IMG/VR virus record: IMGVR_UViG_3300027290_000006
Coordinates: 1 to 21,059 of that record
Direction: 5' to 3' (one strand)
Source: a virus
Length of the DNA: 21,059 nucleotides
Made by a program: the position numbers and the translations under genes
The notes under the pieces: generated by a model
What the model was told of the DNA's origin: nothing
Database searches by the model: none
The model's input: the letters and a program-made list of their open reading frames with translations, nothing else
Shown: positions 3 to 14,363 of the stretch, in pieces
How the letters are laid out: each line of letters starts with the position of its first letter
Position numbering within the stretch: the first letter of the stretch is position 1

Positions 3-2669
3 GAGTACATCCCCGTGTTTGAGGTGGTCAACCACCTGGAGCGCGAGGGCAGAATCTCTGAAGCGTTTGACGTGCGCGGCGACCTCGAGGGCCTGTACGA
101 GCGCCGCACTGGAGCCAAGCTCGAGAAGTACCGCAAGCAGTACGAGAAGCCGCTGATGAAGCTGGTTGAGCAGCTCGGCAAAGAGGGTGGCAACACGACT
201 CTGGCCGAGGCGTTCCCAAGCCTTGCGGCATCGTTCAAGGACAGCCGCCTGGGCAACCTCAACGTGATCGACGCCTACCTCGGCGCACGCCACGCAGCAG
301 AGCGGAACAAGCAGATCGCCAAGATCAACCCGAATCAGCCTGATGGCGGCTCGGGCATCTTCACGGCTGATGCCGATCTGATCCTGAACACGCTGTCGCG
401 CCAGTCGTATGGCAACACCCTGTCTGAGATGACGCACATCCTGCAAGAGATCTCGCAACTCAAGCTCTCTGAGATGTACGACTCGGGCATGATCGGCCGC
501 GACGAGCTCAAGGCCCGCAGCCAGTACAAGTACTACGTCAACTTGTCCGGCATCAACGAGAACATCGACCAGTTCGACAACCCGGTGATCCTGGCTGGCG
601 GTCCCAAGTTCGGCACCCGCAAGGACCGCCGCGCAATGGGCCGTGGCGACGCAGCTTCCGACATCTTGATCCGCACCCTCCAGTCATTCGAGGCATCGGT
701 CATCCACGCCGAGAAGAACAAGGTCAAGCAGAAGGTGCTGGCCATGCTCGAGATCAACTACGACCCTGACTTCGTGGTGATCAACAAGCAGGCAACCGTG
801 CGCAAGCTCGATGAGAACGGTCAGGTCACCGAAGCGACAGATGACCGCTACATCCAGAACCGCGACGTGATGGTCGTCCATGTGAAGGGCAAGCCCATCA
901 CGATGGAGTTCAAGCAGAAAGGCCCTGGCACTTTCGGAGAGGCCATCAACGGGATGATCTGGCCACCGGAGGCGACCAACTGGTTCCAGCGATTCTCTGG
1001 CCGAGCCAACCAGCTCATGGGTCAGATGCTGACCACTTGGAACCCGGCCTGGACAGCAGTCAACTACATCCGCGACTTGCAGAGTCTGTACTTCAACGCC
1101 GTCACCGAGGGTCGCATCACCCGTGAGATGGCCAAGGAGATGGTCAAGCTGCAACCGCAGGCCATCAAGGCGGCTTTCCACGTTGCCACCGATGGCAAGC
1201 GCGGCCACTCGGCCAGCCAGGACATGCTCGATGCCTACATCGAGATGCGTGACTCCGGCGGCGCAACCAGCTTCCTGAACCTGCGCGGCCTGGAGAACCA
1301 GGTGCAGGAGCTCGAGAAGCTGATGAACCCTGCCAAGAAGGGTTCGGCCAAAGACGTTCTCCTGAAGGCGGCTGACCTGATCGAGTCCATCAACATTCCG
1401 ATGGAAATGGCTCCGCGTATCGCCGCCTTCAAGGTCATGCGCGACAACGGTTACAGCGCCGAAGAGGCAGCACGGTTCGCTGGCGACATCACTGTGAACT
1501 TCAATATGCGCGGCAGCTCGAAGTTCATGCGCAACATGTTCCTGTTCTTCAACCCTGCCGTGCAGGGTACGAACAAGATGTACCGCCTGGCCAAGGAGAA
1601 CCCGAAGACCATGACCAAGATCGCTCTTGGCATGGCGGCAGCAGGCTTCATCACCAACATCATCGCCCGCGCTCTTGGCGGTGAGGATGATGACGGCATC
1701 GACAAGCTCGACAAGGTGCCAGTGTTCAAGCGTGCAACCTCGATCGTGATCTGGCCTGACATGCCTGGCGCAGCGATCCCGATCCCGTACGGCTGGAACG
1801 CCTTCTACGCTGCCGGTCACTTCATGGCCGACACCCTCTGGGCTGGCTCGCAGTCTGCGTCCACCACCGCCAAGCGGATTGTTGGCGCTGCCTTCGAGTC
1901 GTTCTCGCCCTTGGGTGGCGCAATGTTGGATGCGTCGTCTACCGGCGTCGGCGCTCTCAAGACGGTGACACCGACGGTGCTCTCGCCGCTGGTGGATCTG
2001 ATCCTCAACGAGAACCGCTTCGGCGCACCCATCTCCAAGGAGGCGTCCATGTTCGGCGGCGGCAAGCGTGCCGACTCGCACATGAACTTCGACTCAGCGA
2101 GCCCGATCTCGACTGCCGCATTCCGTGGCTTGAACAAGCTGACCGGCGGCGACAAGGTCAACGCTGGCGTGATCGACATCAACTCCGGCGCGTTCGACTA
2201 CCTGGTCAGCGGCTACTTGCCAGGCCTTGCTGCGGAGACCTACAAATTCGCCTCGTGGACGGTGCGCAAGGCTCAGGGCTACGACACCAAGGACGCCGCT
2301 CTGCCGATCATCGACCGCCTGACCGCCAAGATTCCCGAGGGCTACAACTTCGGGATGCTGCGCAGGGCTGAGACGTTCATCAAGACCAAGGTGGACGACT
2401 ACGAGGTCAACCCCGGCAACCGTGAAGCGATCCTCAAGGAGTACCCGAACCTGGGCGCTGCCAAGTCGATCATCGGCGCGGTGGACTATCAGGTCGGCCA
2501 GCTCCGTCAGGCGCGCAATCAGCTCGAAGCGGCCGATATGCCTGAAGAGAAGAAGGTGGAGATGTACAACCTGAGCCGCCAGCGCGAGAAGGAGATCGTG
2601 GCCAAGGCTGTGCAGCTCGTTCTTCAGACCAATCCGCAGATGCGCAAGGTCCTGCTGGCCAACGATTGA
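3..2669 (+). CDS. Large phage polyvalent protein, LPD38-type, C-terminal 888 residues (5' end outside window)
   Basis: The reading frame is open to the left edge; the GTG at 15 is internal, so the true start lies outside the window and 888 codons are seen. The middle part (about residues 320-570) matches what I know of Large Polyvalent protein-associated Domain 38: a NWFQRF...NPAWTAVNYIRD segment, a VNFNMRG motif, then FFNPAVQGTNKMYR. A hydrophobic stretch follows (IALGMAAAGFITNIIARAL), probably one membrane-inserting helix, and the C-terminal 100 residues are helical and charged. Such proteins occur as giant multidomain phage proteins late in the structural module and are thought to travel in the virion and enter the host with the DNA; that role is inference here. 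The next gene follows after 12 nt on the same strand. No catalytic motif is visible in the part seen, and the N-terminal enzymatic domains typical of the class would be upstream. Confidence 0.75.
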   Translation, partial: EYIPVFEVVNHLEREGRISEAFDVRGDLEGLYERRTGAKLEKYRKQYEKPLMKLVEQLGKEGGNTTLAEAFPSLAASFKDSRLGNLNVIDAYLGARHAAERNKQIAKINPNQPDGGSGIFTADADLILNTLSRQSYGNTLSEMTHILQEISQLKLSEMYDSGMIGRDELKARSQYKYYVNLSGINENIDQFDNPVILAGGPKFGTRKDRRAMGRGDAASDILIRTLQSFEASVIHAEKNKVKQKVLAMLEINYDPDFVVINKQATVRKLDENGQVTEATDDRYIQNRDVMVVHVKGKPITMEFKQKGPGTFGEAINGMIWPPEATNWFQRFSGRANQLMGQMLTTWNPAWTAVNYIRDLQSLYFNAVTEGRITREMAKEMVKLQPQAIKAAFHVATDGKRGHSASQDMLDAYIEMRDSGGATSFLNLRGLENQVQELEKLMNPAKKGSAKDVLLKAADLIESINIPMEMAPRIAAFKVMRDNGYSAEEAARFAGDITVNFNMRGSSKFMRNMFLFFNPAVQGTNKMYRLAKENPKTMTKIALGMAAAGFITNIIARALGGEDDDGIDKLDKVPVFKRATSIVIWPDMPGAAIPIPYGWNAFYAAGHFMADTLWAGSQSASTTAKRIVGAAFESFSPLGGAMLDASSTGVGALKTVTPTVLSPLVDLILNENRFGAPISKEASMFGGGKRADSHMNFDSASPISTAAFRGLNKLTGGDKVNAGVIDINSGAFDYLVSGYLPGLAAETYKFASWTVRKAQGYDTKDAALPIIDRLTAKIPEGYNFGMLRRAETFIKTKVDDYEVNPGNREAILKEYPNLGAAKSIIGAVDYQVGQLRQARNQLEAADMPEEKKVEMYNLSRQREKEIVAKAVQLVLQTNPQMRKVLLAND

Positions 2670-2681
2670 TGGAGTGACGAC

Positions 2682-3062
2682 ATGGCATACACCAAGCCTG
2701 CGCTGCGAGAGCGCCTGAAGGACAAGATCATGGCCGGAGGCAAGGGTGGCGACCCTGGCGAATGGTCAGCCCGCAAGGCGCAGCTCCTGGCTGCCGAGTA
2801 CGAGAAGTCCGGGGGTGGCTACAAGGGCGGCAAGACCGGCTCCCAGCAGTCCCTGACCAAGTGGACCGGCGAGAAGTGGCGCACCAGCGACGGCAAGCCC
2901 AGCGAGGGCAAGAAGCGCTACCTGCCAGACGCCGCATGGAAGTCGCTCAGCTCGTCCGAGAAGGCGGCGACCAACCGGGCCAAGGCCGAGGGCAACGCGA
3001 AGGGCAGGCAGTTCGTCAAGCAGCCTGAAGGCGTGGCCAAGAAGGCTGCCAAGCACCGCTGA
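2682..3062 (+). CDS. DUF5872 family phage protein, 126 aa
   Basis: This is a small, very basic protein rich in Lys, Gly and Ser. The core (about residues 22-90) reads DPGEWSARKAQL..YEKSGGGYKGGK..SQQSLTKW..EKWRTSDGK, which I recognise as DUF5872, a family common in phages, giant viruses and environmental bacteria. No enzymatic motif is visible. The high Lys content and the lysine-rich tail (KKAAKHR) suggest nucleic-acid binding, but the function is unknown. ATG at 2682 is preceded by GGAG at 8 nt spacing. It lies 12 nt after the LPD38 gene and is the last gene before the tRNA-Asn fragment, so it appears to close the late transcription unit. Confidence 0.75.
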   Translation: MAYTKPALRERLKDKIMAGGKGGDPGEWSARKAQLLAAEYEKSGGGYKGGKTGSQQSLTKWTGEKWRTSDGKPSEGKKRYLPDAAWKSLSSSEKAATNRAKAEGNAKGRQFVKQPEGVAKKAAKHR

Positions 3063-3190
3063 CTGTGTCATTTTCAGACAGTTGCAGTGCGTATCTGGGC
3101 GTACAAGGAGAGCGGCCTTCGTACGGTAGGTTGTTGATTCCACTACACCCGGCTACACACTGCTACCTGCCTGCGCACCCCCGAGACCGG

Positions 3191-3235
3191 CTGTTAATCC
3201 GCAGGTCCCTGGTTCGAGCCCAGGTCGGGGAGCCA
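3191..3235 (+). other. tRNA-Asn(GUU) 3'-half fragment: presumed phage attP core
   Basis: The 45 bp run from the anticodon loop (CTGTTAATCCG, anticodon GTT) through the variable region, a perfect T-arm (CCTGG 3208-3212, loop TTCGAGC, CCAGG 3220-3224), the 3' acceptor strand TCGGGGA (3225-3231), discriminator G and CCA (3233-3235). The bases upstream do not form a D-arm or 5' acceptor strand, so this is not a working tRNA. Tyrosine-recombinase elements commonly carry exactly such a 3' half, which restores the host tRNA after insertion. The integrase gene ends 81 bp away and points towards it. Phage genes on both sides indicate attP (free or circularly permuted phage, or a tandem junction) rather than attL or attR. 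Confidence 0.85.
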
Positions 3236-3275
3236 AGAAAACGCGGGTCTTGTTGAGAGTGCCCGCTAACCCGAG

Positions 3276-3311
3276 AAGGCCACTGTGCTGAAAACGTACA
3301 GTGGCCTTTTC
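3276..3311 (+). terminator. Intrinsic terminator after tRNA fragment
   Basis: A perfect 11-bp stem AAGGCCACTGT (3276-3286) pairs with ACAGTGGCCTT (3298-3308) around an 11-nt loop and continues into a short T run and pyrimidine-rich DNA on the + strand. It would stop rightward transcription from the late genes before it runs antisense into the integrase. On the opposite strand the stem is followed by CTCGGG, so it is a poor terminator for the integrase message. Confidence 0.65.
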
Positions 3312-3315
3312 CCTT

Positions 3316-4407
3316 TCACGCCACCGCCTCGAGGAAGGGTTTGGCCAACCCCATTCCAAGATTCGGCTGCGCGGCACCCGCAACCAGCATCTGCTCGATC
3401 ACGAACGCATGCTGCGCCAGGTGCGACACGTTCAGATGGGCGTACCGCTGCACCATCTCCACCGACTTCCACCCACCCAGCTCCTGCAACCGATCCAGGC
3501 TCACCCCGGACTGACGCAGCCACGACGCCCAGGTGTGCCGCAGGTCATGCCAGCGCAAATCCTCGAGCTTCGCTTCGGTGAGCGCCTTCTTCCACATTCC
3601 AGGCGGGATGTCGCTGATCAAGCCACCATCGGGCCGAGGAAAGACGAGCTCGCGGTGCTTGCCCATCTGCCCCTTCACCACCGCCTGCGCGGTCGGTGAC
3701 AGCGGGATGGCGAACGGCAGGCCGTTCTTCATCACTTGCTGCGGGAACGTCGCCACCGTGAGACCGCCCTGCACCGAGAGGTTGCCCCAGCGCAGACCGA
3801 ACACGTTGGCGCGGCGCAGACCCGTGGTCACCGCAAACCTCGACGCCGAACCGTAAGGCTCGGGCAAGGCTGCGGCCAGCCGCTCGTACTCGGGAGGGGT
3901 CAAGAACCTCATGCGCCAGTCGCCCTCTTCCAGCAGGACAAACTTCGGTGACTGAGGAATCCAGAGCCACTCCCTTGCCGCCGCCAACATCACCGAGCGC
4001 AAGAACGCAATGTGCCGGTTGACGGTGGCAGGCTGGACCACGCCGTCGCCCCGCAGCTTGGGGCGCCCTACCTCCTCGTCCCGGATGTCGGCGACCACAT
4101 CGGGCGTCACCTCGTCCAGGTACTTCACGCCAGCCTCGGCGAACTCGCGCAACCAGAACGCGTGATACCGCTCGTCGTCCCGGATGCTGCGCTTGTGCGC
4201 GTGCTCGGCCAGCCACTTCTTTGCCGCCTCCTCCCAGGTGCGGCGCACTGCCTTCTTCAAGACTCGCTCACTCCAGGCCTCGTGCTTCAGCCTGTCGTGC
4301 AGCTCCTGGGCGGCTTGCTCATCCTCGGTCCTGCATGAGTTGCGGTACAGCTTCCCGCGCACAGAGAACGAGTACCACCACACTTTCCCACGGCGATGAA
4401 TCGACAT
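3316..4407 (-). CDS. int: Tyrosine recombinase, phage integrase, 363 aa
   Basis: Site-specific recombinase expected to join attP (tRNA-Asn core, 81 bp beyond its stop) to the host attB. The N-terminus starts MSIHRRGKVWWYSFSVRGK, like the arm-binding domain of many phage integrases; a SAM-like core-binding domain spans about residues 55-150 and the catalytic domain about 165-330. Visible catalytic residues are R198 (TTGLRR), K227 (QQVMKNG), H287 and R290 (WHDLRHTW), W313 in place of the second histidine (LGGWKS, a known variant) and the nucleophile Y322 (VQRYAHL). I chose ATG 4407 over an in-frame TTG at 4440 because GGAG sits 6 nt upstream of it and the protein then begins with the usual family N-terminus. 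The full length is normal for the family. It probably has its own promoter at 4440-4469. Confidence 0.95.
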   Translation of the reverse strand: MSIHRRGKVWWYSFSVRGKLYRNSCRTEDEQAAQELHDRLKHEAWSERVLKKAVRRTWEEAAKKWLAEHAHKRSIRDDERYHAFWLREFAEAGVKYLDEVTPDVVADIRDEEVGRPKLRGDGVVQPATVNRHIAFLRSVMLAAAREWLWIPQSPKFVLLEEGDWRMRFLTPPEYERLAAALPEPYGSASRFAVTTGLRRANVFGLRWGNLSVQGGLTVATFPQQVMKNGLPFAIPLSPTAQAVVKGQMGKHRELVFPRPDGGLISDIPPGMWKKALTEAKLEDLRWHDLRHTWASWLRQSGVSLDRLQELGGWKSVEMVQRYAHLNVSHLAQHAFVIEQMLVAGAAQPNLGMGLAKPFLEAVA

Positions 4408-4439
4408 GACTTCTCCGATCCGCCGAAGGCCGCGTTGCA

Positions 4440-4469
4440 AGAATACAACGGCCTGCGGATTCCTGTAAA
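4440..4469 (-). promoter_or_regulatory. Candidate sigma70 promoter for the integrase
   Basis: On the minus strand, TTTACA (4469-4464) and TATTCT (4445-4440) are separated by 18 bp, which is 5/6 and 4/6 match to the -35 and -10 consensus. Transcription would begin about 25 nt before the integrase ATG at 4407. The rest of the 210-bp gap (4408-4617) holds no gene. It contains short inverted repeats (AGCTCC 4552-4557 and GGAGCT 4568-4573, 10-nt loop) that could be integrase or excisionase binding sites, but nothing in the sequence proves this. Confidence 0.4.
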
Positions 4470-4617
4470 GCTGTGTGTTGCTGTGGGTGGCTTGGCGAGA
4501 AAAAGGTGGGGGTACTCACGTCCTGCCGGTCGACTGGAGGGGTGGCCACTTAGCTCCTAGTTACGACGGAGCTCCCTCACTTGACCGGTGCTAGCGTCGG
4601 ACGCTTTCCCCCCGTAG

Positions 4618-4902
4618 TCAGCACAGCCCGGCTTCGTGCCGACGCTGCTGGAGCAGGTAGCCCTCGAGCTCCCACACCTTCTCGAGCGCATTATCCCAGG
4701 CCACCTTCTCGCCAACGGTCTTGTTGAACTCGAGCGGGTCGATGCAGGCGCTGGTGCCCACGACCGTGAACCCGTTCTTGAGCGTGAGCTGGCAGACCGT
4801 GGTGGTCGTATCGCCCAGTCGCCAGTAGTCGGTGCGCAGCACGGCCTCGAGGATGTTGCCCATCGACAGCTTGTTGGGTAGTTTCTCCTGATGATCTTTC
4901 AT
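4618..4902 (-). CDS. N4 gp49 / Sf6 gene 66 family phage protein, 94 aa
   Basis: Recognised from the family core LTLKNGFTVVGTSACIDP (residues 40-57), followed by FNKTVGEKVAWDNALEKVWELEGYLLQQ, where an invariant W-x-L-E-G-Y ends the domain. The family (Phage_gp49_66) is widespread in podoviruses and other phages of proteobacteria. Its function is unknown, and it usually lies among early genes. ATG 4902 follows an AAAGGA Shine-Dalgarno sequence. The length is typical of the family. It is the last gene of the leftward early block before the integrase and lies 10 nt downstream of its neighbour. Confidence 0.8.
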   Translation of the reverse strand: MKDHQEKLPNKLSMGNILEAVLRTDYWRLGDTTTTVCQLTLKNGFTVVGTSACIDPLEFNKTVGEKVAWDNALEKVWELEGYLLQQRRHEAGLC

Positions 4903-4912
4903 GTGTTTCCTT

Positions 4913-5110
4913 TCACTTGATCGAATCGAACGCGGACATCAACTGCGTGACGGTCGCGCCGGGTTTCTTGAGTAGCTTCGAGGCGTGGTCGCGCTGACGC
5001 ATCCAGTCTCTTGTTGCTTGAACGGAGCCGTTCTGAACGCGAAGCGGCACCTTGTTGATCTGCTCTTCCAGCTTGCGGCGAAAGAGCTCGCGTTGTGTCT
5101 TGTCGTCCAT
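4913..5110 (-). CDS. Small hypothetical phage protein, 65 aa
   Basis: A basic, mostly helical small protein (MDDKTQRELFRRKLEEQ..., ending QLMSAFDSIK); I do not recognise the family. An upstream in-frame ATG at 5176 exists, but ATG 5110 is preferred because it lies one base after the stop codon of the 46-aa membrane gene (TGACATG), fitting the tight coupling across this operon. The Shine-Dalgarno signal is weak (GGGTG), consistent with translational coupling. No catalytic motif, cysteines or membrane segment are seen. Confidence 0.6.
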   Translation of the reverse strand: MDDKTQRELFRRKLEEQINKVPLRVQNGSVQATRDWMRQRDHASKLLKKPGATVTQLMSAFDSIK

Positions 5111-5111
5111 G

Positions 5112-5252
5112 TCAGCACCCGAATCCAATACAGAAGAGTTCCTTGGCGGTACGGGCCATGAGCCCCAGGAACACAAAGAACATCACCCACATGGCGACCA
5201 CCAGGAAGATCGTCGTCAGCCACTCGAACGGTGTGTGGAAACTGCGCTTCAT
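5112..5252 (-). CDS. Tiny single-pass membrane protein, 46 aa
   Basis: It begins MKRSFHTPFEWLTTIF and contains one continuous hydrophobic helix of about 22 residues (roughly 12-33), followed by a short, slightly basic tail ending CIGFGC. ATG 5252 has AAAGGA upstream and overlaps the stop of the preceding gene (TGATG), and its own stop is one base before the next ATG, so position and spacing support a real gene. A positively charged N-terminus before the helix suggests N-in topology. Function is unknown; small phage membrane proteins in early operons include superinfection-exclusion and host-interference proteins, but nothing here identifies which. Confidence 0.6.
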   Translation of the reverse strand: MKRSFHTPFEWLTTIFLVVAMWVMFFVFLGLMARTAKELFCIGFGC

Positions 5253-5488
5253 CACACCATCCTTTCCAGGTCATAGAGCTTGCGCCGTCCTCCCACCACA
5301 GCCTCTGAGAACTTGGCGGATTCACGCGCAGCGTTATCACCGATCTGTGTGCGCCACTGCTGGTAGAGCGTCATGCGCCGGGTGGGCGAGGACATCGAGG
5401 ACGCCTCACGCACCCGTGCAATCAGACGCAGGCGCGACTCACGCAGCTCCTGCGCCCAGCGCTGCTCCTGCTCCATCGAGAAGCTCAT
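5252..5488 (-). CDS. Small hypothetical phage protein, 78 aa
   Basis: An arginine- and glutamate-rich, probably all-helical protein (MSFSMEQEQRWAQELRESR at the N-terminus, GGRRKLYDLERMV at the C-terminus). I do not recognise a family. Its ATG overlaps the stop of the MazG-like gene in an ATGA arrangement, and its own stop overlaps the ATG of the 46-aa membrane protein, so the three genes are translationally coupled. No cysteines, catalytic motif or membrane segment are seen. Confidence 0.6.
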   Translation of the reverse strand: MSFSMEQEQRWAQELRESRLRLIARVREASSMSSPTRRMTLYQQWRTQIGDNAARESAKFSEAVVGGRRKLYDLERMV

Positions 5489-5937
5489 ACGAACCCCGTC
5501 AGGTTGGGAGCACTCCAGCCCTCGGGCTTGCCGATCTTCCCGCCGGGAAGGATCACGGGCTTGCCGTCGACCAGCTTGGCGTCGTTGCTTGCCAGCACTG
5601 CCTCGTCTGCGCCTTCCTTGTCGAAGTCAGCCAGGTAGGCGATGCCGTTGCCGGTCACCTCACGGTCGCACAGAGCGTCGAGTGCTTCGATACGCCTGTC
5701 GGCCGGGATGCGAGCCATGATCACACCCTTCTTGAGCAGGGTGCCGATGCGCTCCAGGTCCTCGGAGAGGGCCTCGAGCTGCTCCTGATCAAACTCTGAG
5801 TCGAGCTCGACGTTGGTCAGGAACTCGGCGTACTCCTCCATGTCGCAGCCGATCTGAACCGACAGGTTCGCCACCGTCTGGCCCTTGCCGCAGGCTTGCA
5901 GCCACACGGCCGTGCGCTGGAAGTTCGAGTGCGGCAT
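5485..5937 (-). CDS. MazG-like nucleoside triphosphate pyrophosphohydrolase, 150 aa
   Basis: The protein resembles phage all-alpha NTP pyrophosphatases of the MazG / phosphoribosyl-ATP pyrophosphohydrolase superfamily. It has an EEYAE metal-binding helix (E34, E35, E38) and a second acidic helix, DALCDREVTGNGIAYL (D87, D91), which together match the ExxE...ExxD-type metal site with some degeneration. The ending ILPGGKIGKPEGWSAPNLTGFV resembles the C-terminal motif of the phage subgroup. Such enzymes hydrolyse (d)NTPs or related nucleotides to monophosphate and pyrophosphate, and in phages may clean nucleotide pools or lower alarmone levels. The substrate cannot be read from the sequence. It is coupled on both sides (TGATG with the upstream gene, ATGA with the downstream one). 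Confidence 0.65.
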   Translation of the reverse strand: MPHSNFQRTAVWLQACGKGQTVANLSVQIGCDMEEYAEFLTNVELDSEFDQEQLEALSEDLERIGTLLKKGVIMARIPADRRIEALDALCDREVTGNGIAYLADFDKEGADEAVLASNDAKLVDGKPVILPGGKIGKPEGWSAPNLTGFV

Positions 5938-6137
5938 CAGTCCGTGCCCCCGACCTCGGTGGAGGCAGCGCCAGCGCCCTGCTCCTGCGCCTGCTGGACA
6001 GCGAGCTGCTGCTCAGCCTGGTTCTTGACCTTGAACCAGGTGTCTGCGACCTGCTCGAAGGGCAGCTTGGCCAGCGCTTGCAGGATGCTCTGAGTCTCGT
6101 TGACGGACAGGGAGAGGTTGATTTGGTTGGTGCTCAT
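5937..6137 (-). CDS. Small hypothetical phage protein, 66 aa
   Basis: A short acidic protein, INLSLSVNETQSILQALAKLPFEQVADTW at the N-terminal half, then a Gln/Ala-rich helix (NQAEQQLAVQQAQEQGAGAA). It resembles a recurring family of small phage proteins with an LSVNE..LQAL..LP..QVA pattern and no assigned function. The upstream extension to 6263 was rejected because ATG 6137 overlaps the stop of the preceding gene (ATGA) and the extension is low-complexity and arginine-rich. The stop overlaps the ATG of the MazG-like gene. Confidence 0.6.
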   Translation of the reverse strand: MSTNQINLSLSVNETQSILQALAKLPFEQVADTWFKVKNQAEQQLAVQQAQEQGAGAASTEVGGTD

Positions 6138-6487
6138 TGCGTTTCTTTCTTCAGTTTCCAAAGGGTCTTGGGCGACCCGTGACAGGTCGCGCTCTTCTGC
6201 TTGCTGTAGCCGGCCGCAACGATGTGGCCATCGCGTGCCACCTTCTTTGCGACGTAGCCCCATGCTCGGTTGTCAGGCGGCGCATCGAATCCGAGCTTGC
6301 CTGCCCATACCCTGACGTCCTCAGTCATGAAGCCGTCCGGGTGTTGAATGGCGTAGAGGATGAACAGTTCCTCGGCGTAGTGCGTCCAGTCCATCGACTC
6401 GCTGTCAGCGTGCGATGCGGCGACCATCATCCCGGCGTCAGCGCCGAGCTCAGCCAGCCTCTCGTTCAGTACGGGGTATGCGTTCAT
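6134..6487 (-). CDS. Phage protein of unknown function, winged-helix-like, 117 aa
   Basis: The C-terminal two thirds follow a pattern seen in many phage proteins: DGFMTEDVRVWAGKLGFDAPPDNRAWGYVAKKVARDGHIVAAGY followed by SPKTLWKLKK. The spacing of helices and the final hairpin suggest a winged-helix fold that could bind DNA, as in replication-initiation or loading proteins, but this is inference from the secondary-structure pattern. The ATG overlaps the stop of the upstream gene (ATGA) and its stop overlaps the downstream ATG. It belongs to the leftward recombination operon. Confidence 0.6.
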   Translation of the reverse strand: MNAYPVLNERLAELGADAGMMVAASHADSESMDWTHYAEELFILYAIQHPDGFMTEDVRVWAGKLGFDAPPDNRAWGYVAKKVARDGHIVAAGYSKQKSATCHGSPKTLWKLKKETQ

Positions 6488-6801
6488 GCCTTGCCCCTCT
6501 CGAACAAAACGGACATGCCGCAGTAGACGATCGAGCCAAGGACCTCGAGCTCAAAAGCATCGCCATTGCGCGTGGATGCCGCCTCTTCCAGCTTCTTTGC
6601 CGCCTGGCCAGTCAGGAACCCACGGCCATGCAGCTTCGAGTAGTGAACCCAGGGCTGATCAAGGAACGGCGTGACGTTGCCGCCATGACGCTCACCCTTG
6701 CCGTACATCGCCTGCTGAATCGCCGCGACGAACACCGGGAACAGCGGGTGGTTCTGCACGTCCAGCGGGACGGGTACTGAATCAGGCCGCTGCTGCATCT
6801 G
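6484..6801 (-). CDS. Hypothetical phage protein, 105 aa
   Basis: I do not recognise a named domain. The sequence contains a strongly patterned region, NHPLFPVFVAAIQQAMYGKG (residues 17-36), then WVHYSKLHGRGFLTGQAAKK, that looks like a conserved phage family. ATG 6801 is chosen over an in-frame start at 6894 because GGAG lies 6 nt upstream and it overlaps the end of the excisionase gene by 20 nt, whereas the longer form would overlap most of that gene. Its stop overlaps the next ATG (ATGA). Confidence 0.6.
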   Translation of the reverse strand, partial: QMQQRPDSVPVPLDVQNHPLFPVFVAAIQQAMYGKGERHGGNVTPFLDQPWVHYSKLHGRGFLTGQAAKKLEEAASTRNGDAFELEVLGSIVYCGMSVLFERGKA

Positions 6802-6961
6802 GCGCTCCGTACTGACTGCGCAAGAACTCGTCGAGGTCTTCCTTGCGAAAGCGCCACTGACGACCGACCTTGCCGGATGGGATACGCCTGTCACGCGCCA
6901 GCTTGCGCAGCGAGAACACGCTCAGACCGAGGTACTCGGCAGCTTCAAAAATCGACATCAT
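6782..6961 (-). CDS. Excisionase / AlpA-type helix-turn-helix protein, 59 aa
   Basis: A MerR-like winged HTH of the HTH_17 (excisionase-family) type: SIFEAAEYLGLSVFSLRKLA (residues 3-22), then RDRRIPSGKVGRQWRFRKEDLDEFL, ending with a short Ala-rich tail. The whole domain is present and nothing else is fused. Such proteins are recombination directionality factors (Xis) or small transcription regulators. With an integrase in the same leftward direction, Xis is the first candidate, but integrase and this gene are about 2.4 kb apart and are probably not expressed from the same start. ATG 6961 follows AGAGGA and overlaps the nuclease gene by 17 nt. Confidence 0.8.
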   Translation of the reverse strand: MMSIFEAAEYLGLSVFSLRKLARDRRIPSGKVGRQWRFRKEDLDEFLRSQYGAPDAAAA

Positions 6962-7808
6962 TTGTTGTTTCCTCTTGTGGTTGACTGGCTTTGATCTGCT
7001 GCCACTGCGAACAGAAGGGCGCGACCTCGCAGTACTCCTCGCACCTGCGGTTACGTCCGGGACGCTCTTGCACGTAATGACCGGGCGGGATATCGCCCAG
7101 CTCAGACAGGATCGGGACAACGCGTTTTGCGCGCTTGCCACCCTCTTTCATGAGGGCATAGGTAGTCCCGCTGTACCAGCGCTCCTCCGGGGAGCACTCG
7201 ATCTCTTCACCAGAGTCACTGCGCTGGTGGAAAGAAACCCTCTCTCTCACGTAACTCTCACAGTCTCCCAACGGCCAAGCTGGCACGTCAATGACTTGTA
7301 TTGCCTGCTTTGGGTAATCGTCGCGCCGTTGCGACTCTGCGCGTTTCCAATCCCGGAAAATGGCAACGACTTGCAGGCGGTCGACCTGATAGCCGTTCTT
7401 GTGAGCAAGCCAACGCAGCACGTTGAGCTGACGAGTCCACGACTCGTCGCCTAAGTACTTGTACGTAGAGCAGACCTTCCAGTCTTGCAGCGTCCTGTCG
7501 GCCAGGTGCATGCGGTCGAACTGACCGCTCACCTTCCAGCCATCGACCTCGGCGTACAGGCGCTCCTCAACAAGGGCGCTTGTCTCAGCCCTCTCGAGGA
7601 CTGTGTGGACGGCCTGACCCATCACGGACCAGACGCGCTCTGACACGTCCTCGACCACGCTCTCCTTGTGCGCCCTGTAAAGGGTGCGACGACGTGGCGA
7701 ATCAATCAGCTTGGTCGCGGAAATATCGCCGCCGCCCTGATACGGGTCGTTCAGGACGGCCGCGACGAACGCGTCAGGCAAGCCGTGTACGTTGGTGTAG
7801 AGGGACAT
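6945..7808 (-). CDS. PD-(D/E)XK nuclease, Cas4/RecB-like, 287 aa
   Basis: The fold is recognised from the ordered motifs H68 (VMGQAVHTVLE), D98 (SGQFDRM), D109-W-K111 (LQDWKV) and Q127 (RQLNVLRWL), the RecB/Cas4 family active site (H, D, D-x-K, QxxxY-like). Near the C-terminus C256, C260 and C266 resemble the three-cysteine part of a 4Fe-4S cluster. The partner cysteine that Cas4/AddB proteins have near the N-terminus is not seen (the corresponding region reads DSPRRRTLYRAH), so a cluster is uncertain; C183 or C205 could substitute. Expected role: 5'-3' or end-resecting exonuclease feeding single strands to the ERF annealase two genes upstream. GAGG lies before ATG 7808. Confidence 0.8.
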   Translation of the reverse strand: MSLYTNVHGLPDAFVAAVLNDPYQGGGDISATKLIDSPRRRTLYRAHKESVVEDVSERVWSVMGQAVHTVLERAETSALVEERLYAEVDGWKVSGQFDRMHLADRTLQDWKVCSTYKYLGDESWTRQLNVLRWLAHKNGYQVDRLQVVAIFRDWKRAESQRRDDYPKQAIQVIDVPAWPLGDCESYVRERVSFHQRSDSGEEIECSPEERWYSGTTYALMKEGGKRAKRVVPILSELGDIPPGHYVQERPGRNRRCEEYCEVAPFCSQWQQIKASQPQEETTNDVDF

Positions 7809-7815
7809 CGCGGCC

Positions 7816-8085
7816 TCAGAAAGGAATGTCCTGGTCCTGACGTGCAGGAGCTGCGCGATAGCCGCCGTTGCCGCCGTCGTTCTTTGTGTACTTGGGGTCG
7901 GGCAGCTTCAGGACGCCGGACTCGAAGGGCGTGCCGTTCTTGCTGACCTTGCTCCAGATGGCAACGTCGTACTTAGTCCCATCAGGGAAGGTGACGGTGC
8001 CGGTCTTGGTCGGGGCCTTGGCGCTGGTGGCTCGTGTGTTCTCGAAGAGAACGATCTCGATCTGGTTGTTGTACGTAGCGGACAT
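7816..8085 (-). CDS. Putative single-stranded DNA-binding protein with SSB-type DIPF tail, 89 aa
   Basis: A short beta-rich body (IEIVLFEN, KTGTVTFPDG, KYDVAIWSKVSKNG, FESGVLKLPD) is consistent with a minimal OB fold. A flexible Gly/Asn/Arg-rich linker follows, and the protein ends DQDIPF. The acidic tip ending in D-I-P-F is the hallmark of bacterial SSB proteins, where it docks partner proteins of replication and repair. It lies between the ERF annealase and the Cas4-like nuclease. It is much shorter than E. coli SSB and I cannot match it to a named family, so the function is inferred from tail and context. Its ATG is 6 nt after AGGAG, which overlaps the ERF stop. Confidence 0.6.
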   Translation of the reverse strand: MSATYNNQIEIVLFENTRATSAKAPTKTGTVTFPDGTKYDVAIWSKVSKNGTPFESGVLKLPDPKYTKNDGGNGGYRAAPARQDQDIPF

Positions 8086-8088
8086 GAA

Positions 8089-8691
8089 TTACTCCTGAGT
8101 TGCGGTTGCTTCTTTGGCTTGCAGACGAGCGACGACTTCTTGCACCTTGGTTGCGGGAAGGTCGCTCAACGAATTGATCTTGTAGGCGGCGCAGATGGCG
8201 GTCGTGTCGACGCCTTTGGCTGCTGCCAGCTTCGAGATCGTGTCCACGTCCAAAGCTGAGGCCTTGGCCGGGGTGGGTGCTGCGGGTGCAGCGGTCGGGG
8301 CGCGACGCACGGGTGGTGCAGCAGTCGCTGCGTTGCCGTCGTCGTCCTCGGGGGCGATGCCGCATGCAGCCATAAGGCTGTAGCGACGCGCATAGGTGAG
8401 CGCCGAGCCGTACCCCTGGGCGTCGTGCTTAGACGAAGGGACGTGCAGCTTTCCGGCGCTGAAGGTCTCGCCGCTTTCGTGGATGAACGTGGTCTCCACG
8501 ATCACGCCGTTGTCGCACTCATGGGTCTGCTGGATCAGGGCCAGGCCGTTGTCGTTGAGCGCGTCGATGACGGCCTCAACACATGTGGCGAGGTCCGCAT
8601 AGCGGCTCTTGAAGTGCGGGTTGGCGCTCTGTTTGAGGGCTGGACCGAACGCTTTTTGCGCACGAACCAACGCCGAGGCGATTTCTTTCAT
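8089..8691 (-). CDS. erf: ERF family single-strand annealing protein, 200 aa
   Basis: This belongs to the ERF superfamily of phage recombinases, recognised by KSRYADLATCVEAV near the N-terminus and the signature GYGSALTYARRYSLMAACGI (residues 93-112) followed by an acidic EDDDGNAA. ERF proteins anneal complementary single strands and promote genome circularisation and homologous recombination, like P22 Erf or lambda Beta. An Ala/Pro-rich linker (about 122-146) leads to a C-terminal helical domain of about 50 residues, possibly an oligomerisation or DNA-contact module. It is the first gene of the leftward operon. ATG 8691 has ACGGAG 5-6 nt upstream, in a leader identical to that of the divergent primase gene. 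Confidence 0.9.
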   Translation of the reverse strand: MKEIASALVRAQKAFGPALKQSANPHFKSRYADLATCVEAVIDALNDNGLALIQQTHECDNGVIVETTFIHESGETFSAGKLHVPSSKHDAQGYGSALTYARRYSLMAACGIAPEDDDGNAATAAPPVRRAPTAAPAAPTPAKASALDVDTISKLAAAKGVDTTAICAAYKINSLSDLPATKVQEVVARLQAKEATATQE

Positions 8692-8693
8692 GG

Positions 8694-8705
8694 GTTCTCC
8701 GTGAG
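8694..8705 (-). repeat. 12-bp leader box, left copy (CTCACGGAGAAC on minus strand)
   Basis: CTCACGGAGAAC precedes the ERF start codon by 2 nt and includes its Shine-Dalgarno GGAG. The identical 12 bp occurs at 9006-9017 in the opposite orientation before the primase ATG. The pair is therefore a 300-bp-spaced inverted repeat that gives the two divergent operons the same translation-initiation leader. Confidence 0.6.
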
Positions 8706-8798
8706 ACTGGTTGAAAATTGGCGATAGCCAAATTGAATTGGACAGTCGCCGCGTTTTGTGGGTTGTAGTGTAGCTGTAAATGCAACGCTGTTGCTTTA

Positions 8799-8808
8799 GG
8801 GTATACCC
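8799..8808. promoter_or_regulatory. GGGTATACCC palindrome, candidate operator
   Basis: A perfect 10-bp palindrome in the divergent region, with further partial symmetry outside it (TTGC 8791-8794 and GCAA 8814-8817). Dyads of this size in a phage early control region are often repressor or Cro-like sites. No assigned DNA-binding partner in this window supports that directly. Confidence 0.3.
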
Positions 8809-8905
8809 CTATGGCAAAGTAAATTTCGTCGCAGATAATTCAACCCACTGATTCGTCTACGTTTTTTTGAGCGCCGAGGTGTTTGCTTAGATTGTTCTAA
8901 GTCAC

Positions 8906-8955
8906 GCAGCGAAGCGTAACAAATAGGTCGGCGGTACGCAGACAAGCGGCGAAGC
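8906..8955 (+). repeat. Direct near-repeat GC(A/G)GCGAAGC, 40-bp period
   Basis: GCAGCGAAGC at 8906-8915 recurs as GCGGCGAAGC at 8946-8955, one mismatch, exactly 40 bp apart (close to four helical turns). Only two copies are evident, so this falls short of a real iteron array, but both lie on the primase side of the control region. Confidence 0.35.
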
Positions 8956-9005
8956 ACACACAGCTCTATAGCTGCTCGCTATCGCTACATACAGCAACGC
9001 TTTTA

Positions 9006-9017
9006 CTCACGGAGAAC
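9006..9017 (+). repeat. 12-bp leader box, right copy (CTCACGGAGAAC)
   Basis: This box carries the GGAG Shine-Dalgarno of the primase-helicase gene and is identical to the box before the ERF gene on the other strand (8694-8705). It fixes ATG 9019 as the primase start. Confidence 0.6.
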
Positions 9018-9018
9018 A

Positions 9019-10725
9019 ATGAAAACTTTTCAGGATTTCGGAATTGACCTGAAGGGTCGGACTGGCGAGGAGGTCAAGACGACCTGCCCGCAGTGCTCGC
9101 ACACCCGAAAGAAGCAGAGCTACCCCTGCTTGAACGTCAACACGCTCAAGGGCATCTGGCACTGCCATCACTGCGGCTGGTCCGGTGGTCTGGGCAGCGG
9201 CGTCATCAACCGCTCTGCCCCACCCTCACGTCGCGTCTACCCCAAGCCCGAGTTCCGTCCGGCCAGCCTGAGCGAGAAGGCTCACGAGTGGTTCACCAAG
9301 CGCGGCGTCACCACTGAGGTGCTGGTCCGCAACCGCGTGAGCATGGAGCGGGTCTGGATGCCTCAGATCGAGGACGAGGTCACGGCGATTGCCTTCCCCT
9401 ACTACAAGGGCGGCGAGGTCGTGAACATCAAGTACCGGGACGCGCAGAAGAACTTCCGCCAGGTCGCTGGCGCAGAGAAGATCCTCTACAAGTACGACGA
9501 CATCTCGACCCAGCAGACCATCATCTGCGAGGGTGAGATGGACGCCCTGTCCCTCGAGGTCGCGGGGTTCCAGCACTGCATCAGCGTGCCTGATGGGGCG
9601 CCCGAGGTAAGGGCCACCAACTTCGACAAGAAGTTCGAGTTCCTTGACGACGAGCGACTCGACGCCGTCAAGCAATGGGTGCTCGCAGTTGACTCTGACG
9701 AGCCTGGTCGCAAGCTCGAGGACGAGCTCTCTCGCCGCCTGGGCAGGGAGAAGTGCCTTCGGGTGATCTGGCCCGAAGACTGCAAAGACGCCAACGAGGT
9801 GCTGGTCAAGCACGGCGCTCAACGTCTGCGCGAGTGCATCGAGGATGCCAAGCCCTTCCCTGTCGAAGGCGTGTTCTCGATCGACGACATTGCTGACGAC
9901 ATCGACCAGATGCTCGAGTTCGGCATGGTCCAGGGCGAGCCGACCGGATGGGAGTCGGTCAACGGCCTGTACAAACCAGCGCCTGGTCAGTGGACCCTGG
10001 TCACAGGCATCCCCTCGATGGGCAAGTCCGAGTGGCTGGACGCGATGGCGGTGAACATCGCAGAGAACGCTGGCTGGACCTTCGGCATCTGCTCACCTGA
10101 GAACCAGCCGATCTCGTGGCACGCCGCAAAGCTGATCGAGAAGCGCATGGGCTCTCGCCTCGTGGCTGGTCAGGTGGATCGCGTGAGGTTCGCCGACGCC
10201 AAGGAGTGGATGAACCAGCACTTCCACTTCATCATGCCCGAGGAGCCAAGCCTTGATTCCGTGCTGGCTAAGGCTAAGGTCCTGATCCGCAGGCAGGGCA
10301 TGAAGGGTCTGATCATCGACCCGTACAACGAGCTCGATCACACCAAGCGCAAGGACGGGGTGAGTGAGACCGAGTACGTCTCGCTGTTCCTCACGCAGAT
10401 GCGCAAGTTCGCCCGTGACAACCAGATCCACATCTGGCTGGTGGCGCACCCCTCGAAGCTGATGAAGGATAAGGACGGCACGTACCCCGTGCCCGATGGC
10501 TACGCCGTCTCAGGCTCGGCGCACTTCTACAACAAGGCCGACAACATCATTGCCGTCCACCGGGACACCAGCAACCCGCGTGCGGCCACCGAGGTCCACG
10601 TCCAGAAGGTTCGTAGCCGCTGGCTTGGCAAGCGCGGCACAGCGTACCTGCAATGGCAGTCGCACTCCGGCCGCTTCACTGAGTTCAACGGGGCGTACTC
10701 CCCACCAACAGGGGGTGACGCATGA
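9019..10725 (+). CDS. Bifunctional primase-helicase, T7 gp4/Twinkle type, 568 aa
   Basis: A replicative enzyme that lays primers and unwinds the fork. In order: an N-terminal zinc finger (C23, C26, C49, C52: CPQC...CHHC), a Toprim primase core (ICEGEMDALS with E171; AVDSDEPG with D225/D227), a linker, then a RecA-like DnaB-family helicase with Walker A GIPSMGKS (330-337), Walker B LIIDP (D434), an H-motif LVAHPSK (H477) and a GSAHFYNKADN segment near 499-509. All key residues are intact and the length is typical of phage T7 gp4-type proteins. ATG 9019 follows GGAG. It heads the rightward early operon, and its stop overlaps the next ATG (ATGA). The phage thus supplies its own fork engine rather than relying on host DnaB and DnaG. 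Confidence 0.93.
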   Translation: MKTFQDFGIDLKGRTGEEVKTTCPQCSHTRKKQSYPCLNVNTLKGIWHCHHCGWSGGLGSGVINRSAPPSRRVYPKPEFRPASLSEKAHEWFTKRGVTTEVLVRNRVSMERVWMPQIEDEVTAIAFPYYKGGEVVNIKYRDAQKNFRQVAGAEKILYKYDDISTQQTIICEGEMDALSLEVAGFQHCISVPDGAPEVRATNFDKKFEFLDDERLDAVKQWVLAVDSDEPGRKLEDELSRRLGREKCLRVIWPEDCKDANEVLVKHGAQRLRECIEDAKPFPVEGVFSIDDIADDIDQMLEFGMVQGEPTGWESVNGLYKPAPGQWTLVTGIPSMGKSEWLDAMAVNIAENAGWTFGICSPENQPISWHAAKLIEKRMGSRLVAGQVDRVRFADAKEWMNQHFHFIMPEEPSLDSVLAKAKVLIRRQGMKGLIIDPYNELDHTKRKDGVSETEYVSLFLTQMRKFARDNQIHIWLVAHPSKLMKDKDGTYPVPDGYAVSGSAHFYNKADNIIAVHRDTSNPRAATEVHVQKVRSRWLGKRGTAYLQWQSHSGRFTEFNGAYSPPTGGDA

Positions 10726-10967
10726 CACTCGAAGAGCTGCGCAGCATTCCGCTGCAATACACGTTTGGCTACAGCGCCGACACCCACGCCGTACGTCAGT
10801 ACATGAGCAAGGACAAGCTGATCTGCAAGCAGGTCAGCACACCTCGCAACAAGAAGACCGGGATGTGGGGCAACGGCAAAGTGACCTACATGCTCGTGCC
10901 CACCAAGCAGGAGTTCGAGACAGTCGAGGAGCTGCTCGAGGCCATCAATGCTCGGGAGGCCTCATGA
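10722..10967 (+). CDS. Small hypothetical phage protein, 81 aa
   Basis: Not recognised. The sequence starts MTLEELRSIPLQYTFGYSAD, has a basic middle (CKQVSTPRNKKTGMWGNGK) and ends in a helix (FETVEELLEAINAREAS). The ATG overlaps the primase-helicase stop (ATGA) with AGGGGGTG a few bases upstream, so it is translationally coupled to it. That coupling hints at a role alongside replication, but no motif supports a specific one. Confidence 0.6.
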   Translation: MTLEELRSIPLQYTFGYSADTHAVRQYMSKDKLICKQVSTPRNKKTGMWGNGKVTYMLVPTKQEFETVEELLEAINAREAS

Positions 10968-11194
10968 CCCGCGAAGACATCATCCGCATGGCGCGGGCTT
11001 CAGGCTGGTCAGACAAGGACATCGACAGCCTGATGTACATCGTCGAGACAGCCGCCGCAGCAGAGCGTGAGGCGTGTGCAAAGGTGTGTGAAGGGCTTAC
11101 ACCTGAGTGGCCAGACCAGCTAGGCATCGCCCAGGCTGAGCGGACGACCATGCTTGACTGCGCCGCAGCCATCCGAGCAAGGGGGCGAGCATGA
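10964..11194 (+). CDS. Small phage protein, 76 aa, EREACAKVCE type
   Basis: The pattern MTREDIIRMARASGW at the N-terminus, then an AAEREACAKVCEGL helix, ending MLDCAAAIRARGRA, recurs in many phages of beta- and gammaproteobacteria with no assigned function. It is probably all-helical. The start overlaps the preceding stop (ATGA at 10964-10967), and its own stop overlaps the next ATG in the same way. A much longer in-frame upstream extension (start 10496) was rejected, as it runs antiphase across the primase gene. Confidence 0.65.
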   Translation: MTREDIIRMARASGWSDKDIDSLMYIVETAAAAEREACAKVCEGLTPEWPDQLGIAQAERTTMLDCAAAIRARGRA

Positions 11195-11484
11195 CTTATC
11201 GCAACCGCAAGCTTCTTGACCTGGCTAAGGACCAGCGATGCGTGATGTGTGGCGCTGATGACGGCACGGTCGTGGCGGCGCACAGCAATCTTGGCGAGCA
11301 CGGCAAGGGCTTTGCGCAGAAGGCGCATGACGGCATGGCCGCATGGCTCTGCTATCGGTGTCACGCCGAGTACGACCAGGGCAACAAGATGAACAAGGTG
11401 GACAAGCGTGACTACATCCTCACGGCTATCTGCAAGACGTACCAAGAGATGTGGATCAAAGGACTTATCGGGGTGAACAAATGA
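11191..11484 (+). CDS. Putative HNH-like nuclease domain protein (DUF1364-like), 97 aa
   Basis: It has paired cysteines C17/C20 (CVMC), a VVAAHSN segment with H31, and CYRCHAEYD (C54, C57, H58). This arrangement (CxxC, H, CxxCH) is typical of zinc-stabilised HNH-type nucleases and of the DUF1364 phage proteins, which start RNRKLLDLA and carry VxAH. Such proteins are recombination or junction-processing nuclease candidates (compare the phage Ref/NinG group). The family call rests on pattern, and catalysis is not proven. ATGA overlaps at both ends couple it to its neighbours. Confidence 0.65.
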   Translation: MTYRNRKLLDLAKDQRCVMCGADDGTVVAAHSNLGEHGKGFAQKAHDGMAAWLCYRCHAEYDQGNKMNKVDKRDYILTAICKTYQEMWIKGLIGVNK

Positions 11485-11858
11485 CAGAAGAGTTTTTCAA
11501 GAGCACTCAAGCGATTCGTGAAGAGTCGATCGGAATGATCAAGACACTGCGCGCAGTGCGTGGCGAGAACTACGCACGGCTGGTTCACTCGATCATCCTT
11601 GCCGATCAGATCGAGAACGTCACCAACATCTTTGTCGAGAGCACCACGCCTGAGACGAGAGAGCTGGCGCAGGGCATCTCCAAAGCGCAGATGAGCATGG
11701 TTGCGCAGATCATGACCTACTACACCCGCTGCACTCAGTTCAGCAAGGAGCAGATCGCAGAGGCGATTGCGGACGCCGATCGGATTCAGCGCAGCACGTA
11801 CGACCTGATCTCCAAAGCCGACGATCTGAGCAAGGCGGGAAAGGTGATGGGCGAATGA
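11481..11858 (+). CDS. Hypothetical helical phage protein, 125 aa
   Basis: An all-helical, charged protein (TEEFFKSTQAIREESIGMIK...). I do not recognise a family. ATG 11481 overlaps the previous stop (ATGA), which makes the 10-residue longer reading from 11451 unlikely. No zinc-binding cysteines, catalytic motif or membrane segment. Heptad-like spacing in the middle could allow oligomerisation. Confidence 0.6.
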   Translation: MTEEFFKSTQAIREESIGMIKTLRAVRGENYARLVHSIILADQIENVTNIFVESTTPETRELAQGISKAQMSMVAQIMTYYTRCTQFSKEQIAEAIADADRIQRSTYDLISKADDLSKAGKVMGE

Positions 11859-12067
11859 TCGAGAACGACATCACCATGCCTGGCATGCGAGACATCAGTG
11901 GCTACTCAGCTAACTGCTCGCGTTGCGAAGAGCGCAGGCCAATCGACGACGGCGTACAGATCAGCCGAAGCAAATGGGTATGCGGCAAGTGCTGGCGTCT
12001 GAAGGCAACCCGCCCTACTGGCGCGATGGCCGCGCTTTCTGCCGAGGGAAGGCGAGGCAAGTCATGA
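11855..12067 (+). CDS. Small zinc-ribbon protein, 70 aa
   Basis: Two CxxC knuckles, C21-x2-C24 (CSRC) and C43-x2-C46 (CGKC), about 20 residues apart define a small zinc ribbon; the rest is a basic tail ending EGRRGKS. The TRPTGAMAALSAEGRRGKS end suits nucleic-acid or ribosome/RNAP contact, but the function is unknown. Coupled by ATGA to both neighbours. Confidence 0.65.
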   Translation: MIENDITMPGMRDISGYSANCSRCEERRPIDDGVQISRSKWVCGKCWRLKATRPTGAMAALSAEGRRGKS

Positions 12068-12483
12068 GCATCGGCAAAGTCGTACGTAACGCAGGGTCGC
12101 ATCGCATCCTGTACGCGCTGTCCTTCGGCGAGAAGAGCAGCAAGGAACTCAAGCTAGTCGTCGGCGCGATCAACAGCATCAGCCGATTCGATGGCGAGTA
12201 CATGTCCCGCCTCGTGGCCAGTGGCTACGTGCGCAGCGTTCAAAGCGCATGGGCAATCACCAAGTCAGGCAAGGCAAAGCTCGAAGAGCTCGGCCCTGTC
12301 TCTGGCTTCAATCCTGAATCAAAGAGTCTCAAGAACACCAAGATGCTGCTCCCTAACTACGTCCCCGAGCGGGACAACAAACAGCGCCCATTGCGCCCAG
12401 GATCGCAGGACTTCCTTGCGTACCCGAGCCGCATCGGCAACTGGCACTACTACCGTGATGGCCGCATAGAAAGGATCGAATGA
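12064..12483 (+). CDS. Winged-helix-like DNA-binding protein, 139 aa
   Basis: The region SHRILYALSFGEKSSKELKL...YMSRLVASGYVRSV..AWAITKSGKAKLEELG (about residues 11-76) has the helix-helix-helix-hairpin rhythm of winged HTH proteins, with the usual closing I-T-x-x-G-x-x-x-L-x-E-L. The C-terminal half contains KMLLPNYVPERDNKQRPLRPGS and is likely extended. The start at 12064 overlaps the preceding stop; the longer form from 11923 would cover the zinc-ribbon gene. It could regulate early or middle transcription, though that is an inference from fold alone. Confidence 0.55.
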   Translation: MSIGKVVRNAGSHRILYALSFGEKSSKELKLVVGAINSISRFDGEYMSRLVASGYVRSVQSAWAITKSGKAKLEELGPVSGFNPESKSLKNTKMLLPNYVPERDNKQRPLRPGSQDFLAYPSRIGNWHYYRDGRIERIE

Positions 12484-12818
12484 TGGACATCGAAGAAATG
12501 CTGGAGTTGTACCGCCAGCTTGCAGACAGGTACGCACCCGCCCGCGCTGCGCGTGGCCACCTCGAGGACTACAAGAAGTCCTGCCTGGCCATGCTCATGA
12601 AGGACGCCGAGCGCGAGAAGAAGATCACGACCACGTCCGGTCAAGAGCGTGAGGCCTATGCCCACCCCACGTACATCAAGCTGCTCGATGACCTCAAGCA
12701 GGCGGTGTATGAGGAGGAGAAGGTTCGCTACCACCTCAAGGCAGTCGAACTTCAGATCGAGTTGTACCGCACCAAGAGTGCGAACGAGCGTGCGGAGCGC
12801 CGCGCATACGGAGCCTGA
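12480..12818 (+). CDS. Helical phage protein of unknown function, 112 aa
   Basis: A long-helix protein with alternating charge (IEEMLELYRQLADRY..., LLDDLKQAVYEEEKVRYHLK), consistent with a helical hairpin or coiled coil; the middle, REKKITTTSGQEREAYAHP, appears to be a turn. It resembles a recurrent phage family located near recombination genes, but no function is known. ATG 12480 overlaps the preceding stop (ATGA). A second ATG at 12483 is equally plausible as start. Confidence 0.6.
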   Translation: MMDIEEMLELYRQLADRYAPARAARGHLEDYKKSCLAMLMKDAEREKKITTTSGQEREAYAHPTYIKLLDDLKQAVYEEEKVRYHLKAVELQIELYRTKSANERAERRAYGA

Positions 12819-12820
12819 CC

Positions 12821-13057
12821 ATGAGCATCACATTGAAGTACACAGCAGTGGCTCCATTGGTCGAGGCCAACCTCAGGCAAGTCATCAAGGCCGACCTGCG
12901 CAAGCGCCTGAACGAGGTGGTGAATCAGGAGATCGACGCTGTCATCGAGGAGGCCTGCAACGACATCGTTGCCAGGGTCTATGAGGTGCGCGACATCGGA
13001 CTCGATGGCATCACTCTGCAAATCGCGATCAACGGCGTGAGGAAGGACGTGTCATGA
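12821..13057 (+). CDS. Small hypothetical phage protein, 78 aa
   Basis: Starts SITLKYTAVAPLVEANLRQV; two acidic-basic helices are followed by a beta strand (DGITLQIAINGVRKDVS). No recognised domain. It starts 2 nt after the preceding stop (TGACCATG), and its stop overlaps the next ATG (ATGA at 13054). Confidence 0.55.
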   Translation: MSITLKYTAVAPLVEANLRQVIKADLRKRLNEVVNQEIDAVIEEACNDIVARVYEVRDIGLDGITLQIAINGVRKDVS

Positions 13058-13359
13058 ACGAGCAGTGGAAGTTCTCGGCACAGCGGGAAATCTGGAGCGA
13101 TGCCATCTCGCTGCGCATTGGCGTCAAGCAAGACGATGGCGGCTTCTCTGTCGCCGAGCCACTGACCATGCGTGTCATCGAGTCTGGCCAGACGGTCTCG
13201 CCTTGTATGAGCATCCCGTTCGGTGCAGCGCAGTCTTTGATGGATGAGCTGTGGCAGGCGGGGTGCAGGCCATCGCAGTCGATCGGCACAGCAGGCCAGA
13301 TCGAATCAATGAAACATCACCTGGAAGACATGCGTCGACTGGTATTTGAAAGCAAGTAA
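13054..13359 (+). CDS. Small phage protein of unknown function, 101 aa
   Basis: Begins MNEQWKFSAQREIWSDAISL; a central beta-rich part with VAEPLTMRVIESG resembles a family that recurs in phages just before HExxH-type genes, with no known function. The closing helix (MKHHLEDMRRLVFESK) resembles the same family. ATGA overlap at the start, and the stop TAA overlaps the ATG of the next gene (TAATG), which supports a functional link with it. Confidence 0.6.
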   Translation: MNEQWKFSAQREIWSDAISLRIGVKQDDGGFSVAEPLTMRVIESGQTVSPCMSIPFGAAQSLMDELWQAGCRPSQSIGTAGQIESMKHHLEDMRRLVFESK

Positions 13360-13760
13360 TGAAGTGGTTGGACCGAAGAATCTCTGCGCCTGGGCCACAC
13401 CTGACCTTGTGCTTGAGTGACCGCGAATACAAGCAGGCGATGAAGCACATGAACTGTGAGCCGATCTCGCCTTGGATTAAGACCAGCCAGGCGGATGCAA
13501 CAGCGCACCACCTGGTCTCCGCCAAGGGATTGGCTTGCATCGTCTGTTTGAGTGGATGGGAAGAGCGAAACCCCATCGAGATAGCTGGCCTGCTGGTACA
13601 CGAGGCGGTTCACATCTGGCAGGAATACTGCGATTACTACGGCGAGTCATCACCCGGCCGAGAGCAAGAGGCGTACGCCATTCAGGCAGTGGCGCAAGAG
13701 TTGATGGCGGAGTTCTCGTCTCGACTCAGCAAGAGCAGCAAAGCAAAGAAGGGTAAGTAA
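13359..13760 (+). CDS. HExxH zincin-like phage protein, 133 aa
   Basis: A zinc-metallopeptidase-like motif is clear: LLVHEAVHIWQEY (H81, E82, H85) and, 19 residues later, REQEAYAIQAVAQEL with E104, a possible third ligand, as in gluzincins. Related small phage proteins keep the same HEAVHxWQ and ExEAYAIQ blocks, so the site seems constrained. The protein is far shorter than classic zincins and may have another role (structural zinc or a minimal fold). A K-rich tail ends the sequence. TAATG overlaps at both ends. Confidence 0.65.
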   Translation: MKWLDRRISAPGPHLTLCLSDREYKQAMKHMNCEPISPWIKTSQADATAHHLVSAKGLACIVCLSGWEERNPIEIAGLLVHEAVHIWQEYCDYYGESSPGREQEAYAIQAVAQELMAEFSSRLSKSSKAKKGK

Positions 13761-14212: not shown

Positions 14213-14260
14213 AGCGTTGAGGCATGAGCCTCCACCCAAATGCGGTGAGCTGCAACATAG

Positions 14261-14359: not shown

Positions 14360-14363
14360 CTCT

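Follow-up and report, generated by a model that had tools for sequence, protein, structure and literature searches.

A tRNA-Asn(GUU) half beside a tyrosine integrase as the attP common core of a temperate phage with a giant LPD38 protein

In our analysis of the window (the whole stretch of DNA examined, 21,059 bases), positions 3191-3235 are almost certainly the attP common core of a temperate phage (genome about 56 kb) that carries a giant LPD38 protein and would integrate at the host tRNA-Asn(GUU) gene. The attP reading of the site is confirmed and is an ordinary one, and the mechanism is textbook; for this uncultured phage group it provides a predicted integration site and a predicted host range, namely betaproteobacteria with the matching tRNA-Asn variant. 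The features concerned are the following.

3..2669, + strand: C-terminal 888 aa of the giant LPD38 phage protein, left flank (PF18857, 1.4e-22; phrog_14770, 2.5e-98)
2682..3062, + strand: 126-aa phage protein of unassigned function, left flank (phrog_14910/phrog_17747)
3081..3166, no strand: left-arm inverted repeat with 23-nt arms (3081-3103 and 3144-3166), 78% complementary (repeat search)
3127..3139, - strand: IHF-like site in the P arm (left), differing at one position from WATCAANNNNTTR (consensus match)
3191..3235, + strand: attP common core, the 3' 45 bases of tRNA-Asn(GUU) (exact single copy; tRNA-Asn gene ends in bacteria)
3191..3197, + strand: predicted 7-base strand-exchange (overlap) region CTGTTAA in the anticodon loop (placed from the start of phage/host similarity and the att pair of genome G073)
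3273..3311, no strand: inverted repeat between core and integrase with 14-nt arms, 93% complementary, then a short T run (repeat search)
3316..4404, - strand: tyrosine integrase, frame open to 4440, likely ATG at 4404 (PF00589, 2.3e-27; phrog_1, 1.7e-59)
6782..7141, - strand: excisionase-like HTH_17 protein, candidate Xis (profile matches)

The initial annotation had described a 45-bp copy of tRNA-Asn running from the anticodon loop to CCA, with phage-like DNA on both sides, and had taken it for attP in a free, circular or permuted genome whose integration site would be the 3' end of a tRNA-Asn(GUU) gene; these claims stand. The 45-mer is an exact match to the tRNA 3' end and occurs once on the + strand of the window and not at all on the - strand. 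All 45 of its 45 bases, through CCA, are identical to the 3' part of the tRNA that would restore the gene, as befits a tRNA-targeting attP, and such agreement is far beyond chance. No complete tRNA was found in the window by ARAGORN and none above threshold by Rfam, so no intact tRNA gene ends with 3191-3235. Scanning genome contigs for the 45-mer returned at least 120 stretches, mostly betaproteobacterial going by record title, a strain of Cupriavidus necator (L118) among them. The suggestion that it should lie at the end of complete tRNA-Asn genes was borne out in 125 of 163 occurrences, which ARAGORN placed inside complete tRNA-Asn(GUU) genes (this count leaves out L001 and takes in a few viral records twice). 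Among the 38 occurrences outside complete genes are attP sites of phages, copies resembling attR, and genes truncated at the edge of a locus.

The DNA to the left of the core is phage and not host, comprising the LPD38 protein and the 126-aa protein; the giant DarB-like protein family was also matched in the window (phrog_10089 at 1.9e-16). To the right, the 3' end of the integrase gene faces the core with 80 bp between them, which supplies the adjacent tyrosine integrase (PF00589/phrog_1) expected at a tRNA-targeting attP. The integrase residues R197, H286, R289, and Y321, which we take to be the catalytic residues, are invariant across 7 aligned relatives. In the proposed mechanism, the integrase would recombine attP with the host tRNA-Asn(GUU) gene by exchanging strands within CTGTTAA in the anticodon loop. 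On integration, the phage copy would complete the interrupted tRNA gene next to the integrase, forming attL, and the host 3' half that it displaces would mark the opposite end of the prophage (attR). We place the crossover at the anticodon loop because the shared block starts there whatever tRNA is used: its left edge is the anticodon loop in phages targeting Asn, Lys-type, and CAU-type tRNAs and in the attL/attR pair of G073. We infer the position of the crossover, a role for IHF and the arm sites, and lysogeny by the window phage.

The arms of the predicted attP carry further candidate elements. A left-arm IHF-like site with at most 1 mismatch occurs in 11 of 15 phages, which are related and do not amount to 15 independent cases, against 8.4% of shuffles. 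A right-arm IHF-like site adjoining the core is likewise found with at most 1 mismatch in 11 of 15 Asn-type phage rows; in the lineage of the window (3236-3265) it is degraded, with 4 mismatches, a point against the proposed mechanism, and most relatives keep it. The control for this right-arm site, a set of 102 bacterial tRNA-Asn genes, has it in 17, some of which could perhaps belong to other prophages. The left-arm inverted repeat may provide the arm-type sites of the integrase and is a candidate for that function. The repeat at 3273..3311 is a possible terminator; a terminator scan over 2601-4650, this repeat included, found zero.

The site was compared across 24 viral loci whose integrases are related (42-100% identity in the aligned parts; some records appear twice, e.g., L125/L217). 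In 20 of the 24, a tRNA-Asn half within 6 mismatches lies beside the integrase, and in L221 the half has more than 6 mismatches. At the equivalent place beside the integrase, L211 carries a Lys-type tRNA half (L211:5055-5099) and L222 a CAU-type half (L222:5082-5126), these names being our assignment from the anticodon. No tRNA half was found in the region examined of L218. Over 11 distinct cores, the T-stem pairs are standard in 55/55 cells, 4 of the 5 pairs have changed on both sides, and none of 500 shuffles reaches the observed percentage paired or the covariation score; related sequences can beat shuffles without any structure, and slid controls drop to 20-60% paired. Since the T stems stay paired, the cores resemble halves of functional tRNA genes belonging to different hosts. 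The core variant of L212 occurs among the Burkholderiales matches listed (some match was present in 142 of the 200 genomes), and a single pattern covering the variants of L210, L214, L216, L219, and L220 as host genes matched 0 of 274 class-level genomes. In L219 and L220, 9 of the 45 core positions differ, against about 4 in each 45-bp flank, counted by eye. It is possible, and we put it forward tentatively, that the attP core of this phage group is an exchangeable cassette that tracks the host tRNA gene, so that a phage could be re-targeted by swapping its tRNA half; the suggestion comes from the paired T-stem changes between cores, the greater divergence of core than flank in L219/L220, and the Lys-type and CAU-type halves. 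The tRNA half at one attP has changed across these phages, which makes them a natural series and the part of the analysis that most deserves a closer look.

Distant relatives show the integrated form at the same kind of site. L216 has the layout expected of attL, with 53 bp separating a complete tRNA-Asn from an integrase of 51% identity. In genomes G017 and G073, the integrase has a complete tRNA-Asn on one side and, on the other, a second 45-bp copy at a distance of 3,030 bp, and the repeated block in G073 is exactly 45 bp and equal to the window core. Together with the complete bacterial genes, L216 and these duplications support the predicted integration site. Among 30 Burkholderiales loci whose integrases are 36-43% identical, 29 have a tRNA adjoining the match at its 3' end and 1 has none; the distance is within 181 bp in 28 of them and 401 bp in one, and L195 and L196 are at tRNA-Asn. 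Records with two core copies whose integrases were only 22-31% identical, or in which none matched, were set aside as evidence. The expectation that prophages with a related integrase would be found at this gene thus held for relatives (G017, G073, L216) but not for the window phage itself, of which no lysogen (attL and attR in a host chromosome) appeared in two sampled draws of 399 genomes. In 399 Burkholderiales genomes drawn at order level, with at most 4 candidates scored per genome, integrase matches with an E value no higher than 1e-50 turned up in 50, the best being 44% identical; a search of 399 family-level genomes, run without a positive control, gave 0 at E 1e-75. The LPD38 protein had 3 matches in 399 genomes (best 31% identical) and 2 weak matches in 22 core-holding genomes. 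As a separate observation, a 3-kb element with 45-bp repeats at its ends lies at tRNA-Asn in two genomes (L356:1896-4970 and L360:1674-4748) and contains an integrase and an HTH protein, together with a 436-aa frame resembling, by eye, a replication initiation factor.

The window record is classed by IMG/VR as linear, and a linear fragment could be an integrated prophage in which the site is attL or attR and one flank is host DNA. We consider this very improbable, as phage genes occupy both flanks, a complete tRNA is absent, and the junction is internal to records of 55.8-56.4 kb, two of them with overlapping ends. The whole window is covered by record G001 (IMGVR_UViG_3300027336_000040, 55,831 bp), at 99.99% identity over 3-14440 and 100% over 13401-21059. 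Records G002 (56,038 bp) and G003 (56,402 bp) are about 80-84% identical to the window around the site; the first 284 bases of G002 recur at its end at 98.2%, the first 136 bases of G003 recur at its end at 99.3%, and the two break points lie at unequal distances from the core. The two ends of G001, moreover, map about 219 bp apart within G004, which also argues against an attL or attR. The overlapping ends and unlike break points place the phage-core-phage junction in circular or permuted, non-integrated genomes. The permuted records G001-G003 carry the core and the integrase internally, with phage DNA on both sides, which agrees with the attP reading.

Unexpectedly, G001 also encodes an array of six tRNAs (Pro, Tyr, Asn, Trp, Thr, and Ser; L357:10310-10868, about 34309-34867 in G001) outside the window, and its own complete tRNA-Asn(GUU) has the anticodon loop of the core but different stems. 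The presence of this gene in a 55.8-kb record identical to the window could speak for tRNA-dependent lysogeny, in which the phage tRNA-Asn stands in for a host tRNA-Asn disrupted on integration. This too has very little probability, for a core of 45 bp restores the gene through CCA, where a short core leaving the tRNA unrestored would be expected; in the published examples the shared stretch is only about 10 bp (PMC10865867). Nor do the encoded isotypes follow the target. Arrays resembling that of G001 occur in G002, G003, G005, and G1083, and tRNA-Asn is found in G001, G002, G003, and G005, yet none was found in G004, G1082, G1084, G1085, and G1089 despite their Asn cores, and G1083 combines a Lys-type core with an array that has tRNA-Asn and lacks tRNA-Lys. 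As a tie between isotype and target is absent among the relatives, we do not read the array as a sign of tRNA-dependent lysogeny. Least probable of all is that the tRNA fragment is carried by chance, with no role in integration: it keeps its place beside the integrase in diverged phages, its T stems stay paired, and the exact 45-bp block is used by integrated relatives. We therefore retain the reading of 3191-3235 as an attP core that rebuilds the host gene.

Comparison with known systems places this attP in familiar company. According to the Islander report (PMC4383910), anticodon-centred sites are a main class of tRNA sites and such attP fragments restore the gene. The class A sites described there share with the window the 3' tRNA fragment in attP that restores the gene, and the tyrosine integrase; their crossover is placed at the anticodon loop, where it is predicted here too. 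There is no difference of principle; the phage, the branch of the integrase, and the host range are new members. The attP of Smp131 and of related prophages (PMC3931495) similarly has 45-46 bp of a tRNA 3' end beside the integrase, so that an intact tRNA is regained, and in two Xanthomonas cases the tRNA is tRNA-Asn. That group consists of P2-like prophages, whereas the phage here has the giant LPD38 protein. The Bcep22-like podovirus JC1 (PMC9144972) resembles our phage in the mention of LPD38, a circularly permuted genome, a reverse-strand recombinase, a phage tRNA gene, and a DarB-like giant protein, but its integration site is rimO, its recombinase is predicted to be of the serine type, and the overlap is 18 bp. 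Among named phages, the integrase was below 60% identity in all 467 matching records, the best among the matches listed being 39%, and a DNA search with the LPD38 gene returned 1 record, covering 3% of the query.

Farther right of the integrase, the window encodes an N4 gp49/Sf6 gp66-type protein, a MazG-like protein, and the excisionase-like HTH_17 protein, as well as a primase/helicase, an exonuclease, and an Erf annealing protein. Of the window proteins that were scanned, none was recognised as a repressor, which counts against the reading proposed here. The same DNA holds two adjoining genes on the - strand, at 15396-16385 and 16414-17868, whose products are a protein resembling class-II glutamine amidotransferases (GATase_4) and a putative amidoligase (Amidoligase_2); the pair may possibly modify peptide or cell wall.
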